A stretch of 64,000 nt of DNA from Spirochaetales bacterium (GCA_016936555.1 JAFGXR010000049.1:1-64000); one strand, 5' to 3'. Positions 40,383 to 46,314 are shown, numbered from the stretch's first letter. The notes: generated from the sequence alone by a model not told the origin. Translations and numbers: made by a program.

Positions 40383-40847
40383 TTATCCGTTTTTTCTCAG
40401 ATAGGATTCTATTGTCTCGACGACTGCTCGATGGTCCTCTTCCTGTGCCAGTCCCGAGACAGTTATCGTTCCGACCGGACCGGTTCCTTTCAGATATATG
40501 GGAAAGCATCCGCCGTGAGGAGCAAAATCGGCTTCGGCTATCATATATTTCTCCTCGAGAGTTTTTCCACTTTCTTTCAGTTCTTTTCCTATAAGGAGAG
40601 AACTGCGGCCGAACCGGTTCACGAGGTTGGTTTTCCGGCGAACCCAGTTGTCGTTATCCGCCGAAGTTCCGTCAAAACTGTAATGGAAGAGCTGGTGTCC
40701 GTTCCTTGATATATCGATGGTTATGGACAGATTCTCTTTGCGCCCTTTCTCCACAAGCATGGAACCGATTTCCCATGCCGTTTCCGATGAAAAGTAATTG
40801 AACCGGAGTGACTTCTCCTGTTCCTGAATTTCATTTATTGTATACAT
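40383..40847 (-). CDS. UPF0303 / heme-degrading (HbpS-like) domain protein
   Basis: A 154-residue protein of the UPF0303 group (PF03928-like): NYFSSETAWEIG, GRSSLLIGKEL, ADFAPHGGCFPI and the C-terminal GTITVSGLAQEEDH. Biochemistry is thin; relatives have been linked to heme or protein stress. TATAAT (minus strand, 40854-40859) lies 6 nt before the ATG and no SD is seen, suggesting a leaderless mRNA. Divergent from DUF89 with only 26 bp between starts. Confidence 0.85.
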   Translation of the reverse strand: MYTINEIQEQEKSLRFNYFSSETAWEIGSMLVEKGRKENLSITIDISRNGHQLFHYSFDGTSADNDNWVRRKTNLVNRFGRSSLLIGKELKESGKTLEEKYMIAEADFAPHGGCFPIYLKGTGPVGTITVSGLAQEEDHRAVVETIESYLRKNG

Positions 40848-40873
40848 ATCAATATTATATAACGGATAAGATT

Positions 40874-41989
40874 ATGAATGAACAGATTATGACTTCAAAA
40901 GAGGGTTCTTTCGCCAGATTTACCATTGAGAGCAGAGTGCCTGAAATTCTGAAAGGTCTTCGGGAAAATAATCCATTCACTCCATCAACAGGACTGAAAC
41001 TTAAAGAACTTCAGGATTCCATACCCAACGGCAGATTGCTTCCCCTGAATCCGGATTATCCTTTTTCATCACCTATCAATCAGGTACTCGAGGAACACCC
41101 CGATTACAATTGGCTGAACGCGCCGTTTCTTTTCGTTGAAAATTACCTGTATCATTGCATAGCCGATTCCTGCGGATACTTTGAAAACGGGTTTGATTAT
41201 TTCCTCTATAAAAAAGAAGCTGATATCCGAAGGAATCTCGATAAAGTGGCCGGATATCTTCATGATATTGAATCTGTCGATACTTTTCCGGAAATTTGTC
41301 TGCTCAATCTTATGGGGAATAAAGCTGATCTCAGTCAAAGTGATTCCTATTATTCCGCTCAAGCCACTTCACAGCTGCTTATCGATCATCGGGACAATGC
41401 CTCTGAAAAAATCGCAGCCTGCAAACAGGTCGATATTGTTCTGGATAATGCAGGTGAGGAACTCTTTTTCGACCTTCTTCTGGTACAGTGGTTATTTAAA
41501 AAAGGGGGAGTCCAACAGATAAGACTCCACTTTAAATCCATGCCCTATTTTGTTTCCGACGCCCTGATTTCAGATTACCGGCTCCTGCTGAATCTGTTAT
41601 CGGAGCGCGATGATACGCTCTGGTTTGTCACGGAGATGAATAACTATGAGAAGAAAGGAAAACTGATTCTGGAGAGTGATCCTTTCTGGAGCAGCGGGCA
41701 ATTATATTCCTCTTTGTCCGGGAATTTATATTCCCATCTTATCCATTCCGATTTGATCATTTTCAAAGGGGATCTGAATTACAGAAGGCTTGTCGGGGAT
41801 CATTACTGGCCTTATGAGAAGGAAACGGCTTCTCTGATCAACTATTTTAAAACGGATGTTCTTATCAGCCGGATTTTAAAATGCGAGGTGATGGCGGGAG
41901 TTGCTCCGGAAATGATTCCCCATAGGGAAACGACCGATTGGATGTATAGCGGGAACTACGGTCAGATTGAATTTGTCGAAGCGAAATAA
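40874..41989 (+). CDS. DUF89/ARMT1-like metal-dependent damage-control phosphatase
   Basis: A 371-residue protein. VDIVLDNAGEELFFDLLL and DLIIFKGDLNYRRLVGD are the two signature blocks of the DUF89 fold, whose Asp, Asn and Asp residues bind a divalent metal. Family members hydrolyse phosphometabolites such as fructose-1-phosphate and damaged pantetheine phosphates. ATG 40874 has GGATAAG upstream; a longer frame from 40808 runs into the divergent gene. Confidence 0.85.
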   Translation: MNEQIMTSKEGSFARFTIESRVPEILKGLRENNPFTPSTGLKLKELQDSIPNGRLLPLNPDYPFSSPINQVLEEHPDYNWLNAPFLFVENYLYHCIADSCGYFENGFDYFLYKKEADIRRNLDKVAGYLHDIESVDTFPEICLLNLMGNKADLSQSDSYYSAQATSQLLIDHRDNASEKIAACKQVDIVLDNAGEELFFDLLLVQWLFKKGGVQQIRLHFKSMPYFVSDALISDYRLLLNLLSERDDTLWFVTEMNNYEKKGKLILESDPFWSSGQLYSSLSGNLYSHLIHSDLIIFKGDLNYRRLVGDHYWPYEKETASLINYFKTDVLISRILKCEVMAGVAPEMIPHRETTDWMYSGNYGQIEFVEAK

Positions 41990-42129: not shown

Positions 42130-42178
42130 AAAACGATCGGGCTGAGTGGATTTGAACCACCGACCCCATTTCCCCCAG
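42130..42178 (-). repeat. att scar A: 3' half of tRNA-Pro
   Basis: 48 of 49 positions match tRNA-Pro 45873-45921, including 8 bp of 3' flank (AAAACGAT), the acceptor 3' strand, T-arm and anticodon loop. It marks the outer end of the island. Confidence 0.9.
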
Positions 42179-42180
42179 TC

Positions 42181-42453
42181 AAGGAAAGTTATTCTACTGA
42201 TTTTCCTGTAATTTCTTTAATTGTATATTATGTAATGGTTTATTGTAATATGTTTTTCTTTCTTTTTCCTAGATTTTCGTCTATTTTCGCTAAATTTCAC
42301 TAACAAATCCACTAACATTCGAGAAAGTCTAATATATATAGTGGAAAATAATAAATATATGTAAAACTAACATAATTAAATAATATATTTAATAGAGATG
42401 ACTTTATTACTAAAACACTTATGTACATTTTATTGAATTAAGGAGGTGAAATA
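42181..42453 (+). other. AT-rich non-coding segment inside the island
   Basis: Roughly 270 bp with very high A+T and no open frame of note. The end carries AAGGAGGTGA, the SD of the small winged-helix gene, so its promoter must lie here. Confidence 0.5.
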
Positions 42454-42648
42454 ATGGTTACTGTAACATCGAAAGTTGAACGATTTGTGAAATGGCAGAA
42501 TCCCGGTACAGTATTCTCATTCAATACTGTTGTTTCCCGTCTTGAAGTCAATCAAAAAGATACGGTCAATCATGCTCTGAAGAAACTTGTCGAAGCGAAT
42601 GAAATCGTTCATGTGAAGAAGGGGATTTATGCCCGGCATAGCGGATAA
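42454..42648 (+). CDS. Small winged-helix protein, AbiEi-N-terminus-like
   Basis: A 64-residue single wHTH domain: VERFVKWQNPGTVFSFNTVV, helix-turn-helix about 25-50, and a wing ending VHVKKGIYAR. It resembles the N-terminal DNA-binding domain of AbiEi or DUF6088 antitoxins but has no C-terminal effector part. A near-consensus SD (AAGGAGGTGA) precedes the ATG. It may be a stand-alone repressor or the start of a truncated antitoxin. Confidence 0.6.
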   Translation: MVTVTSKVERFVKWQNPGTVFSFNTVVSRLEVNQKDTVNHALKKLVEANEIVHVKKGIYARHSG

Positions 42649-42693
42649 TCAGGAATATGGGTTGTCCGTATTCACTTTTTCCGGAGTCGGCTG

Positions 42694-42804
42694 TCAGCAT
42701 GAAATAGATTTGCCTGGAATCATCCATGGGATCTGATAAATTGGCTCGGTTTTTTTCATCCCTTTAGGTTTTCGGGCGAATAAAGTAAAAGGTTTGGGTT
42801 CCAT
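42694..42804 (-). pseudogene. Truncated tyrosine integrase start (copy 1)
   Basis: After SD GAGGAG the frame reads MEPKPFTLFARKPKGMKKTE then PIYQI and soon stops at 42694-42696. A parallel piece in copy 2, in another frame, gives KPIYQVRFRDPSTGERF, the usual N-terminal strand region of phage-type integrases. Only about 37 codons remain; no catalytic R-H-R-Y part exists here. Confidence 0.6.
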
Positions 42805-42957
42805 TTTTTCTCCTCGGGATCATAGTTGGAGAAAAAAAGAAGTGCAAAATCGGAATTTCAGTTGGTCGCACTTTTGGTCGCAACAAAAAAAAGTCATATA
42901 GAAAAAGAATTAAATCCTTACCCTATATGACTTTAAGAGTCGGGCTGCGTGGATTTG
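42733..42957 (-). repeat. 225-bp direct repeat, copy 1
   Basis: Aligns with 45459-45684 at roughly 90% identity by eye. On the minus strand it holds the end of the tRNA scar, a terminator, two TTGGTCGCA motifs 12 bp apart (42862-42870 and 42874-42882 on the plus strand), an SD and the integrase start codon. Confidence 0.85.
42884..42934 (-). terminator. Element-borne terminator behind att scar B
   Basis: On the minus strand AAAGTCATATAG (42923-42934 region) pairs perfectly over 12 bp with CTATATGACTTT (42890-42901), followed by eight T. Standing just after the tRNA 3' end, it would have ended the tRNA-Pro transcript when this element was adjacent to the gene. Confidence 0.75.
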
Positions 42958-42985
42958 AACCACCGACCCCATGTCCCCCAGACAT
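42941..42985 (-). repeat. att scar B: 3' part of tRNA-Pro
   Basis: 44 of 45 positions match tRNA-Pro 45881-45925 (one change at 42948). It spans acceptor 3' strand to the anticodon stem. Its flank (GACTTTAAGAGT) matches scar C, not the intact gene. Confidence 0.9.
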
Positions 42986-43195
42986 ATATCCTTATACTAT
43001 AAGGAATTACATGATTCTGCTTGTTTCTGCTATTTCCTTTGAGACAAAGAGAATAGGGTGCAACCCCTTCTGTTGGGTTCTGTTCGGATTTGTTATGTTT
43101 TGCACTCCAAACTGTGTCGTATTTAGTGTCGTCTTCCAATATGACTTATAAGACTCTGCTTTGGAGACAGAATGATTTGATGTATACTGAAGCTT
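42986..43195 (+). other. Gap between att scar B and the excisionase-like gene
   Basis: About 200 bp without a supported gene. A minus-strand frame covers it but ends in the tRNA scar and resembles nothing known. Confidence 0.4.
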
Positions 43196-43723
43196 ATGTA
43201 TGATTCATATCGGCTCAGAGATAACCTTGAAAGTTTGCTGGATGGTATCCGGGAAGAAATGCTGCGTAAGAAGAAGGAAGACCGTATATCCTTTCTTAAA
43301 ATTGAGATCCAGAAGTGGGAACAGAAGGTATTAGGCGACCGAGTACAATTCCGTCGTCTGTTACAAGAAGGGGAATTGAACATAGACCCGGAAGTATTTG
43401 AGAATGAACTGGATGAAGAGGAATTGGCCATTGGAAGAATCTACCTTTGGATCAATGCTATGGAGTCCGGTAATGATATCTTTGAATCTGATTCTAAAAT
43501 GGAGGATAAAGGTGATATTCAAGATGAAAACACTCTAACTTTTGAACCAGATCCAACAAATCAGTACATGGATATCCATCAAGTTGCAAAATATCTCCAG
43601 GTTTCTGAGAGTTATATCTACCGGCTCAGTTCGGAAGGAGAAATCCCCAGGATCAAGATGGGGAATCTTATCCGCTTTGACAAAGATGAAATTGATAAGT
43701 GGATGCGAAGGAAGAGGGGGTAA
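43196..43723 (+). CDS. Excisionase-family helix-turn-helix protein
   Basis: A 175-residue protein. The N-terminal 90 residues are charged and helical (RDNLESLLDGIREEMLRKKK). The last 55 (YMDIHQVAKYLQVSESYIYR, then KMGNLIRFDKDEIDKWM) form an HTH_17/MerR-like domain of the excisionase type. It probably served as a recombination directionality factor or regulator of the element. No clear SD precedes the ATG at 43196. Confidence 0.75.
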   Translation: MYDSYRLRDNLESLLDGIREEMLRKKKEDRISFLKIEIQKWEQKVLGDRVQFRRLLQEGELNIDPEVFENELDEEELAIGRIYLWINAMESGNDIFESDSKMEDKGDIQDENTLTFEPDPTNQYMDIHQVAKYLQVSESYIYRLSSEGEIPRIKMGNLIRFDKDEIDKWMRRKRG

Positions 43724-43742
43724 TAAATATCTCCTTCTACAT

Positions 43743-44591
43743 TCATTCCTTCAAATCCTGAAATATGGGAAATAAGTATTCCCGCAGTTTCTCTGTGACA
43801 TTAGAAAAATCAATATGGTCAGCCTTAATCCGGTTCAGGAATGCCTTCCATAATTGGAGATTACGAGCATCAGTGCTAAAACTTTCCTGAAACAGTGCAG
43901 GCTCCTGGGGGAGGAGGGTTTGTCTCCTCTCAAAAGTCAATCTGATTGCTTCTTTCAAAATATCAGTATTTATCTTCTTGTTTACCAGGATGTCGTATAT
44001 ATCATAAAAATCTTTCATCCTGCTGTTGCGGATATCCAGAACAATCATCGCTTCAAACTTCTCTGCTATTACCGATTCCAGTGAGTATGCCGATACCCTG
44101 AATGTTTCTGAATCTAGAAGTAGGGGATAATCCATCAGAACCGGTTCCGGAAAGATTATATCGCCAAAGCCAATGTCGAGTTTCAGATTTGTTCGGATAG
44201 AACCTAGTCGGCATAGAACTTTGAGCCTCTGACCATGGTAATCGGCTCCCTCCTAGATCTCCTGAAAGGTCATTGAGTCTGTATCAAAAGATAAGCCGTC
44301 TTCAAGCGGAATGGTGAGGATCTCGGACAATATGGCTTTCAGCTGTTCAGAATCATTTGGGATATTCAAACCCAGTAAATCAATGTCCATTGTGGGACGG
44401 CTTGTAAAACCGGAGATTGAATAGAGAAGGAGACCACCTTTGAGATAGAAAGCTTCGGTGTACTTCGATTGTCCAATCCTCCTGAGTATTCCTTCCTGCA
44501 TATAAAGGCGGGATATCAGCATAAAGTCTTTCTTCTCTCTTCTGGACAGATTAAGAAGCTTTGCCTGGATTGACGCTGCCGGATTCTTCAT
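43743..44591 (-). pseudogene. abiEii: AbiEii nucleotidyltransferase toxin interrupted by a nonsense codon
   Basis: One frame of 283 codons encodes an AbiEii/AbiGii toxin. The N-terminal part has YLKGGLLLYSISGF and the catalytic RPTMDIDLLGL; the C-terminal part has the AEKFEAM and RMKDFYDIYDI blocks. A TAG at 44253-44255 splits it (MTFQEI, stop, EGADYHGQR); relatives usually have Lys or Gln there. Both halves stay in the same frame, so this is a single substitution, from AAG or CAG. The N-terminal fragment alone lacks the C-terminal domain and should be non-toxic unless the codon is suppressed. The start overlaps the antitoxin stop (ATGA). Confidence 0.88.
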
Positions 44592-45199
44592 AGCAGCACG
44601 TCCAGATAGTGATTGAGTACAGTTTCGATCCGAAGCTGCTGCGCATAGCTGTTTAGTGTGTTTAGATCCTTCTGCTTGCTTATCATATACTCTTTGAGCA
44701 CTTCCTTCATAATATCCATTCCTATTCTGTTTCTGAATCGTACGGTGTCACAGACGACTCTTTCCCTGTCGTATATGTCTATCATTTCCCCCGATTCAGC
44801 TTTGACTTCAGTGCGCCCAAGTGCCAGAATATTCTCTGATATGTGATACAGTTTGATGGGAGGATATTCCGGTAATACAACCTTTCTTCCCCGTTCAATT
44901 GCAATGTGTGTTTCCGGGGGATTCCAGGTTGTCAGCTCATAGAAGGAGAGTGCTGTTCCCATGCAGATGATTCCATCCGGAACTGTGAGAAGTGCTTCCT
45001 TAAGAACGGTATAATTATCCATTTCTGCCAGGCTGTAAAGACCGTGTTTGAGCTTAATGATGGAGCCTTCATCGACAAGTTGCTGGAGATATTTGTGGTG
45101 GATTCCACTGTAACGAATATCCTGGGTCCTTGCGTAGCCGGAATGTTCCGTAAAGACTTCTTTAATCCGCTTTCGTGTTTCATCGGTCATGTATGACAT
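44588..45199 (-). CDS. abiEi: AbiEi family antitoxin/transcriptional regulator
   Basis: A 203-residue antitoxin of the type IV AbiE system: N-terminal wHTH (GYARTQDIRYSGIHHKYLQQ, then IIKLKHGLYSL) and a C-terminal domain (AESGEMIDIYDRERVVCDTV). AbiEi proteins repress their own promoter and neutralise AbiEii without direct contact. An inverted repeat lies just upstream. The frame is intact although its toxin is broken. ATG 45199 or 45190; no clear SD. Confidence 0.88.
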   Translation of the reverse strand: MSYMTDETRKRIKEVFTEHSGYARTQDIRYSGIHHKYLQQLVDEGSIIKLKHGLYSLAEMDNYTVLKEALLTVPDGIICMGTALSFYELTTWNPPETHIAIERGRKVVLPEYPPIKLYHISENILALGRTEVKAESGEMIDIYDRERVVCDTVRFRNRIGMDIMKEVLKEYMISKQKDLNTLNSYAQQLRIETVLNHYLDVLL

Positions 45200-45203
45200 T
45201 ATA

Positions 45204-45229
45204 TACTACATGTGTCTGTATGTGTAGTA
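45204..45229 (-). promoter_or_regulatory. Inverted repeat upstream of abiEi, probable autorepressor site
   Basis: TACTACA (45204-45210) and TGTAGTA (45223-45229) are perfect arms around a 12-bp spacer, 5 bp from the abiEi start. CAGTACCTAA-like direct repeats follow at 45226-45234 and 45262-45270. AbiEi relatives bind inverted repeats in their own promoter. Confidence 0.55.
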
Positions 45230-45352
45230 CCTAATGTCCCGGAGGGGCGGTATATAAGTTCAGTACCTAAAGACGTTATTGACCAGTAGACCAAAGAGAA
45301 GAAACAATATGTCTGGAGTATTGAATGGAACAGAGAACAATATACCGGATAA

Positions 45353-45529
45353 TCACTTACATTCAGAAATAGCAGATGAGACATCCCAGAAGGCTGTACA
45401 GGGTAGATTAAATAATAGGTGAAAACCGTTCTCCCGTACTCGGGTCTCTGAATCTGACCTGATAAATTGGCTTGTTTTTTTCATTGCCTTCGATTTCCGG
45501 GGGAACAAAGTATAGGGTTCTGGTTCCAT
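45353..45529 (-). pseudogene. Truncated, frameshifted tyrosine integrase start (copy 2)
   Basis: The frame opens MEPEPYTLFPRKSKAMKK after SD GAGGAG. A one-base loss relative to copy 1 then shifts it: the other frame continues KNKPIYQVRFRDPSTGERF before a stop. The sequence leaves integrase homology within about 45 codons. Confidence 0.6.
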
Positions 45530-45684
45530 TTTTCTCTCCTCGGGATCAAAGTTGGAGAAAAAAAGAAGTGCAAAATCGGTATTTCAGTTGGTCACACTTT
45601 TGGTCGCACCAAAAAAAAAGCCATATAGAAAAAGAATTAAATCCTTATCCTATATGACTTTAAGAGTCGGGCTGAGTGGATTTG
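45459..45684 (-). repeat. 225-bp direct repeat, copy 2
   Basis: Counterpart of 42733-42957. The terminator stem here has one mismatch and the first arm motif reads TTGGTCACA, so it has decayed independently. It ends in att scar C (45668-45684), which keeps only 17 bp of perfect tRNA-Pro match. Confidence 0.85.
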
Positions 45685-45804
45685 CACCCCATTCGTAGTC
45701 ATCCTGACTACTCATTCCGTGCCCCAGACTTCCGCTGCCGCCGACCTCCCTGTCGGCTTTTCCTCGCTGGCTCGGCGCTTCAGTCTGTTCAAATCCTCTC
45801 AGCC
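45670..45804. other. GC-rich, highly structured element built on a tRNA-Pro scar
   Basis: A 135-bp unit closed by a 15-bp inverted repeat (GGCTGAGTGGATTTG at 45670-45684; CAAATCCTCTCAGCC at 45790-45804; 14 of 15 pairs). Inside are a perfect 7-bp hairpin (GTAGTCA 45695-45701, TGACTAC 45705-45711) and a second arm (CAGACT 45725-45730, AGTCTG 45782-45787) holding GCCGAC/GTCGGC (45740-45745, 45752-45757). It is clearly more GC-rich than the island. No coding sense is evident. Confidence 0.6.
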
Positions 45805-45835
45805 TCTTTGATTTAATCCTGAATAGTTTTTGAGC

Positions 45836-45871
45836 AAAAAAAAAGACTGGAAATTAAACTTTCCAGTCTTT
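45836..45871 (-). terminator. Terminator of tRNA-Pro
   Basis: On the minus strand a perfect 12-bp stem (arms 45842-45853 and 45860-45871) with a 6-nt loop is followed by a T-run, starting 9 nt after the tRNA. Confidence 0.88.
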
Positions 45872-45879
45872 CAAAACGA

Positions 45880-45953
45880 TCGGGCTGAGTGGATTTGAAC
45901 CACCGACCCCATGTCCCCCAGACATGTACGCTAAACCCCTGCGCTACAGCCCG
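45880..45953 (-). tRNA. tRNA-Pro (anticodon GGG)
   Basis: A complete 74-nt cloverleaf on the minus strand: acceptor CGGGCTG/CAGCCCG, D-stem GCGC/GCGT, anticodon stem CATGT/ACATG with loop CTGGGGG (anticodon GGG), T-stem GGTGG/CCACT with loop TTCAAAT, discriminator A. CCA is not encoded. It is the target gene of the adjacent island. Confidence 0.93.
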
Positions 45954-46032: not shown

Positions 46033-46314
46033 CTAACTATTCTGGCTTTCGCGATCCCTTTTCGGTCCTTTTTCAATCGCCATGCTGACCCGGAGCTGCC
46101 GGCCGTCCAGTTCCTGGCTGTCTATGTTTTCCATAGCTGCTTTGGCTTCCACTTCGCTGGCCATTTTTACGAAGGAAAAGCCGCGGAATTTTCCCGAATA
46201 TTTGTCGCTGACCATGCTGACCGATTCAACCGTACCGAATTCGGCAAATACCGATTCAAGCGCTTCAGCCGATGTTCTGTAGTTAATGTTCCCTACGTAG
46301 AGCTTCTTACCCAT
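46033..46314 (-). CDS. RRM-domain RNA-binding protein
   Basis: A 93-residue protein made of one RNA recognition motif: RNP2 KLYVGNI near residue 5 and RNP1 KFRGFSFVKM near residue 45, with a short basic tail (GPKRDRESQNS). Small bacterial RRM proteins of this type are often cold-responsive. A good sigma70 promoter faces it. SD GGAAGGA lies about 10 nt before the ATG. Confidence 0.92.
   Translation of the reverse strand: MGKKLYVGNINYRTSAEALESVFAEFGTVESVSMVSDKYSGKFRGFSFVKMASEVEAKAAMENIDSQELDGRQLRVSMAIEKGPKRDRESQNS

Follow-up and report, generated by a model that had tools for sequence, protein, structure and literature searches.

Background

RtT, an RNA at tRNA genes of Escherichia coli, has been known for decades and is still little understood. 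At the E. coli tyrT locus it consists of an inverted arm (GGGGAAGGAT), a folded core and a direct copy of the tRNA end (ATCCTTCCCCCACCACCA), repeated in tandem. Partial tRNA copies are also left by integrative elements that enter beside a tRNA gene by means of a tyrosine integrase, where the attachment core usually takes in everything from the anticodon arm to the 3' end of the tRNA. Here we describe a locus, positions 42130-45953 of a 64,000-nucleotide stretch of DNA from Spirochaetales bacterium (GCA_016936555.1 JAFGXR010000049.1:1-64000; the window), where three partial copies of tRNA-Pro(GGG), called A, B and C, lie beyond the intact gene. The initial annotation had read all three as scars of stacked, eroded integrations. 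Our analysis points to a composite, with a probability of roughly 78%: an integration hot spot at tRNA-Pro(GGG), to which A and B belong, and a separate unit behind the tRNA, here called a tail unit, to which C belongs. Genomes and loci are cited by our own numbers (G and L), G000 being the genome of the window.

Results

Copy C and the tail unit

The features next to the tRNA gene are:
45880..45953, minus strand: intact tRNA-Pro(GGG) (ARAGORN; 57.7 bits with the Rfam tRNA model on L001)
45836..45872, minus strand: terminator-like hairpin and U-run between tRNA and unit (sequence)
45787..45806, minus strand: inverted arm, the inverted tRNA-Pro 3' end, GAGGCTGAGAGGATTTGAAC on the minus strand (repeat search)
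45676..45798, minus strand: structured tRNA-tail unit, positions 1-122 of model R1 (43.5 bits, held out; fold)
45667..45685, minus strand: copy C, direct (distal) arm of the tail unit, joined to an element flank (sequence)

tRNA-Pro(GGG) is the sole tRNA gene in the window, and the repeat search recovers all three of its partial copies. Copy C retains just the last ~18 nucleotides (nt) of the tRNA. About 120 nt away, with hairpins in between, the same tRNA end recurs in inverted orientation (45787-45806), a copy that had been overlooked before. The unit, 45667-45806 on the minus strand including its arms, is built from the inverted T-loop and 3' half of the T-stem, a conserved core of ~90 nt with three hairpins (H1 to H3), and the direct tRNA 3' end; when it is read as a single strand, its two tRNA-derived arms enclose all the rest. 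Among tail units, a copy of the tRNA terminator often follows the direct arm. Because the sequence preceding C belongs to this palindromic unit, C differs in kind from the half-tRNAs A and B: it is the end of a folded unit of ~120 bases and not a third half-tRNA scar. The description of the copies as tRNA 3' halves therefore stands for A and B and fails for C.

The fold was evaluated in an alignment of sixteen units (A2), made by sequence and without the window's unit, from which the covariance model R1 was built. Its structure has 35 pairs in six helices, formed in 91% of the cells, and holds 97 doubly changed (compensatory) cells, against 30.5 in shuffled alignments and 7-25 in slid controls. 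With 67 distinct further rows (A4), 592 doubly changed cells stand against 172 shuffled, in an alignment biased towards the structure by having been made to R1. The held-out unit of the window is recovered by R1 at 43.5 bits. Loci chosen by a short pattern alone score 17-24 bits, and a score below about 25 bits needs other support.

Distribution of tail units

BLAST finds the middle part of the unit also behind tRNA-Leu, tRNA-Met and other tRNA genes, where the outer arms match the end of tRNA-Leu or tRNA-Met. R1 matches 141 of 395 genomes of the class, in 63 of 133 genera, and in a sample of the phylum it also matches three genomes from other classes, at loci that neighbour a tRNA or have tRNA-type arms. 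Tail units stand behind tRNA-Leu(GAG) outside the class (L184 858-999, L186 911-1053), and the family is therefore older or more mobile than the class. In 115 of the 129 distinct unit contexts a tRNA gene, of 23 types altogether, lies upstream on the same strand, at a median distance of 53 nt for first units; many of the contexts without a tRNA are near contig ends. In the window's own genome, units follow the genes for Pro(GGG), Gly(TCC), Asp(GTC), Val(TAC) and Arg(CCG); those at Asp, Val and Arg score weakly but have the right position and arms. A run of at least 5 T separates tRNA and unit in 62 of 78 first units, the exact tRNA end recurs after 58 of the 78, and five loci have the same 40 bases of terminator region on both sides of the unit. 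The genes beyond the units, from translations read by eye, are mostly ordinary chromosomal ones, without integrases. The unit at copy C is a widespread, host-matched tRNA tail; Rfam has no known family above threshold for it or its relatives, and we found no description of such tail units in the literature searched.

An exact pattern of the middle part, run over 84,980 genomes, gave 21 loci, of which 17 are in Spirochaetia assemblies and nearly all of these directly behind a tRNA. The four others (Leisingera, Rhodobacteraceae, Ruegeria, Selenomonadales) have no nearby tRNA, score 17-24 bits and were rejected; three of them share one coding-like sequence. Nine matches of the H1 pattern in viral contigs, none near a tRNA and again at 17-24 bits, were rejected likewise, and a plasmid search with the palindrome gave no match.

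Units may also be repeated. In G018, of another genus, two stand in a row behind tRNA-Pro. A gene judged by inspection to be of the Fic family lies between these units and a distal partial tRNA-Pro copy, making a small counterpart of the island in the window (L015 3696-5004). Tandem arrays of four to six units follow single tRNAs at L128 718-1597, L142 159-907 and L130 732-1999 (in the complete genomes G071 and G246).

Arms, cores and filled sites

Agreement with the own tRNA is 10.24 of 12 positions for the inverted arms, against 8.43 for shuffled tRNAs (standard deviation 0.13; maximum 8.91 in 2000 shuffles), and 8.09 of 10 for the direct arms, against 6.33 (standard deviation 0.13); the rows compared are not independent, but the gap is wide nonetheless. 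Cores as much as 92% identical are found beside different tRNAs, with arms that differ (L054 Met, L055 Pro). At a tRNA-Gly site upstream of the trigger factor gene, within one genus, a unit is present in G015 and G018, where the two cores are 88% identical, and the site is empty in G006, G032 and G034; the filled sites are longer by ~140 bases and repeat at least 17 bases of the tRNA end. Core similarity as a test of mobility was mixed, the nearest neighbour being from the same genome and another tRNA in 24 cases and from another genome and the same tRNA in 25.

Comparison with RtT and CsrB RNAs

Tail units resemble RtT (RF00391; rttR, tyrT operon repeats) in layout, with a unit, often in tandem, that follows the tRNA, opens on an inverted arm, folds in its core and ends in a direct copy of the tRNA 3' end. 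By the Rfam model they do not qualify as members of the RtT family. The cores differ, the E. coli units have no preceding terminator whereas the spirochaete units usually come after a T-run, and the tail units belong to Spirochaetota and 23 tRNA types. With the Rfam model of RtT, the E. coli copies reach 133-138 bits and no spirochaete unit is listed at E up to 10; conversely, R1 misses RtT when run with filters off. A tandem GA motif has been reported for RtT (PMC7657543), and in the tail unit it is possible to draw GA pairs next to H1 and H3. In E. coli K-12 we also noted an RtT copy in the tyrT-tyrV spacer, above the Rfam threshold, that is unannotated in the table of the record (L080 1364-1495).

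Most H2 and H3 loops read CAGGA(U/C/A)G, which is the CsrB repeat (PMC7652899). CAGGA[ACT]G occurs 0.80 times per unit against 0.06 in dinucleotide shuffles; there are ~6.6 GGA per unit, and GGA is present in the loops of H1, H2 and H3 in 94, 100 and 69% of A2, so that single units carry it in several loops. In these hairpin loops, and in weak Rfam matches, the units are like the CsrA-titrating CsrB/RsmZ RNAs, from which they differ in being attached to tRNAs and in having 2-3 loops per unit; matches to the CsrB/RsmZ clan (CL00106) were all sub-threshold, the best at E 0.33-1.5, well short of the gathering score. Among genera with units, 59 of 63 have csrA, and among the others 46 of 70, a co-occurrence not corrected for phylogeny.

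Integrations at tRNA-Pro(GGG)

Beyond the unit, the traces of integration and the bordering chromosomal genes are:
42940..42985, minus strand: copy B, the tRNA from its anticodon arm through its 3' end (repeat search)
42137..42181, minus strand: copy A, distal attachment copy with chromosomal flank CGATCGTTTTAGAGG (repeat search; comparison with G002)
45440..45672, minus strand: element end 1, terminator-like flank and integrase 5' end (repeat search)
42730..42945, minus strand: element end 2, flank and integrase 5' end (repeat search)
45411..45529, minus strand: broken integrase start 1 (MEPEPYTLFPRK..., frameshift, then stop; translation comparison)
42733..42804, minus strand: broken integrase start 2 (MEPKPFTLFARKPKGMKKTEPIYQ, then unrelated sequence; translation comparison)
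46033..46314, minus strand: chromosomal RRM gene upstream of the tRNA, syntenic in G001-G003
40808..41989, plus strand: chromosomal ARMT1-like gene bordering copy A, conserved in G002

Copy A is 96% identical to tRNA-Pro(GGG) over 52 nt (register 42130-42181), and copy B 85% over a register of the same length (42933-42984) and 96% over 42940-42988. As had been annotated, A shares its flank of ten bases (CGATCGTTTT) with the intact gene, and B shares with C another flank (CCGACTCTTAAAGTCATATAG), which has a terminator-like hairpin of its own. The two long direct repeats described before are equally real: 42730-42945 and 45440-45672 (216-233 bp) are 89% identical and restricted to this locus in the whole genome (E = 1e-75). 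They run into MEPEPYTLFPRK... and MEPKPFTLFARK..., which resemble integrase starts, and both starts are broken, in line with the earlier claim; on the C side the frame is lost in a poly-A run and a stop follows after ~40 codons, and on the B side homology ends after ~24 codons. A phage search with the integrase start gave no match.

Two congeners have an integrase at this tRNA. In G002, the closest relative, the tRNA gene leads into a flank 85% identical to that of the window and then an intact phage integrase of 399 residues; in G001 there is another integrase (REPYTLFPK...), related in its start and truncated at the C-terminus. These two relatives bear out the claim of at least two insertions at tRNA-Pro(GGG). 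Copy A with its chromosomal flank recurs in G002 at 98% identity over 56 bases (L018 8576-8631), near the ARMT1-like gene and on a different contig from the tRNA and integrase; an element would lie between them. G002 probably has a large element at tRNA-Pro, of at least 40 kb if the two contig ends join (L014 16799-19234; L018 8631-18001; L188; L189), with putative genes for type I restriction-modification (HsdM and HsdS by inspection) and transposase-like proteins. Among the congeners there is no clean empty tRNA-Pro site; in G006, of another genus, no partial copy lies near the tRNA-Pro.

With direct repeats of the tRNA 3' part at both element ends and an integrase gene adjoining the tRNA, broken in the window and intact in G002, copies A and B look like attachment-site copies left by integrases. 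The stacked, eroded integrations are real, and of an ordinary, known kind: direct tRNA 3' copies, a tRNA-adjacent integrase and cargo in between are those of other tRNA-targeting elements with a tyrosine integrase, from which the locus differs in that both integrases of the window are broken and the intact one is in G002. The island may be frozen, as had been proposed, although an integrase could act on it in trans. Of what had been named beforehand as evidence against integration, part is seen for C, whose unit stands behind many tRNAs without integrases, and none for A and B.

Similar broken integrase starts lie behind tRNA-Pro(CGG) in G280, tRNA-Met in G239 and tRNA-Val in G142, the order in G280 and G239 being that of the window (tRNA, unit, integrase start). 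Behind these three tRNAs, in three other genera, the broken 5' ends keep only the N-terminal ...IYYVRFRDP... region (L181 1984-2175, L182 1389-1481, L183 274-357). It is as if the tRNA-proximal end of the integrase survived decay preferentially.

Cargo genes

Four genes or gene remnants lie between copies A and C:
44588..45199, minus strand: AbiEi antitoxin, full length (PADLOC AbiEi, E = 2.9e-59; Pfam AbiEi_4)
43743..44591, minus strand: AbiEii toxin gene with one in-frame TAG at 44253-44255 (Pfam and PADLOC)
43196..43723, plus strand: HTH_17 or AlpA-like, excisionase-like gene (HTH_17, E = 1.7e-13; marginal AlpA match)
42454..42648, plus strand: 64-residue winged-helix open reading frame, an N-terminal fragment of AbiEi (PADLOC AbiEi)

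The adjacent AbiEi and AbiEii genes make up a type IV toxin-antitoxin system of the AbiE kind, with an antitoxin, as first annotated, that is full length and a toxin recognised on either side of its stop. It differs from an ordinary AbiE system in the in-frame stop of the toxin gene and in the second AbiEi, of which only the N-terminal fragment is present. The interrupted AbiEii gene had been overlooked; it is otherwise open, and the TAG may be an assembly error or a recent mutation. The excisionase-like gene keeps that description through its marginal AlpA match, though its identity is HTH_17, and what had been called an orphan winged-helix gene is in fact the AbiEi fragment (E = 8.7e-9, residues 3-61 on 2-59 of 205).

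Discussion

The interpretation that we favour is that tyrosine-integrase elements entered beside the 3' end of tRNA-Pro(GGG) at least twice and would have left A and B as attachment copies, along with two element ends that carry broken integrase 5' ends, while the AbiE-type toxin-antitoxin cargo presumably decayed in place. The tail unit, a separate feature, lies between the tRNA and these elements. Such units may arise by insertion or duplication at tRNA 3' ends, with their arms re-matched to the host tRNA, and they probably act as RNA tails through read-through or processing of the tRNA transcript, as RtT does in E. coli. Two orders of events are compatible with the locus: in one, an element entered at the distal arm (C) of a unit already in place; in the other, the element was first, at the tRNA as in G002, and the unit later became inserted between the two.

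That A, B and C are all attachment scars, with the palindrome at C a chance remnant, would agree with the direct junction of C to the same element flank as B; it is nonetheless very improbable, with 43.5 bits for the sequence before C from a model made on other genomes, a matching inverted arm at the far end, and units behind 23 tRNA types that mostly lack integrases. The position of the unit could also be taken to mean that units are spare attachment sites which shield the tRNA gene and its terminator by drawing integrases to themselves: the element begins at the distal arm of the unit and not at the tRNA in the window and likewise in G280 and G239. These are three cases only, however; the elements of G002 and G001 adjoin the tRNA itself, the distal arm offers ~17 nt of the tRNA end where A and B have ~45, and the unit may have been inserted after the element, so that we consider spare sites unlikely. 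A more serious contender, although we lean away from it, is that the units are selfish repeats, non-autonomous mobile or recombinational, without a function for the host, whose stems serve as a DNA recombination substrate, such as a folded single-strand site that imitates the tRNA 3' end, moved by integrases that use tRNA 3' ends. Integron-like cassettes with a folded single-strand attachment site are a further candidate. The duplicated tRNA end at filled sites is like an attachment core, the 92%-identical cores on tRNA-Met and tRNA-Pro (L054, L055) speak for movement, and integrase starts follow the units in the window, G280 and G239; but most units have no adjoining integrase, some appear to have been kept vertically (tRNA-Gly, G015 and G018, 88%), and the strong compensatory change and conserved purine loops exceed what a terminal stem would need.

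The units could be a distant branch of RtT, inherited since the ancestor of Proteobacteria and spirochaetes, and this may well deserve attention even if we would not bet on it: the tyrT layout (inverted arm GGGGAAGGAT, core, direct end, tandem) is the same, and the tandem GA motif reported for RtT (PMC7657543) may have a counterpart in the possible GA pairs beside H1 and H3, yet the two models miss each other's sequences and the E. coli units lack a preceding terminator. As to function, the GGA-bearing loops make CsrA binding the best single guess, albeit a tentative one, and a selfish repeat is about as likely. Doubtful in its full form is the proposal that the units are mobile, host-matched RNA cassettes of ~120 nt that rebuild their closing helix for each tRNA, in a large family not named before, and whose CsrB-like GGA hairpins, summed over all tails of a genome, would titrate CsrA in step with tRNA transcription and read-through.

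Several observations weigh against the composite interpretation or parts of it. Most of the genomes are draft metagenome assemblies, the two element ends of G002 sit on separate contigs, and the window's terminator is unlike the chromosomal terminator that follows copy A in G002. The data fit an entry of the unit before the element as well as after it. A role in CsrA binding is weakened by ~40 loops with CGA instead of GGA and by the very stable stems, and a csrA search of G000, the window's own genome, gave no match. The T-run precedes 62 of the 78 first units, so their transcription is only putative.

Conclusions

Partial tRNA copies near a tRNA gene are not always integration scars, and copy C is a case in point. 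With filled and empty sites in one genus, the spread of the units is testable, and so is a role as RNAs. The tail units make up a second family with an RtT-like layout and an unrelated-looking core, present in about half of the sampled spirochaete genera and behind 23 tRNA types, which suggests that structured tails made from a tRNA's own 3' end are a general, recurring design.

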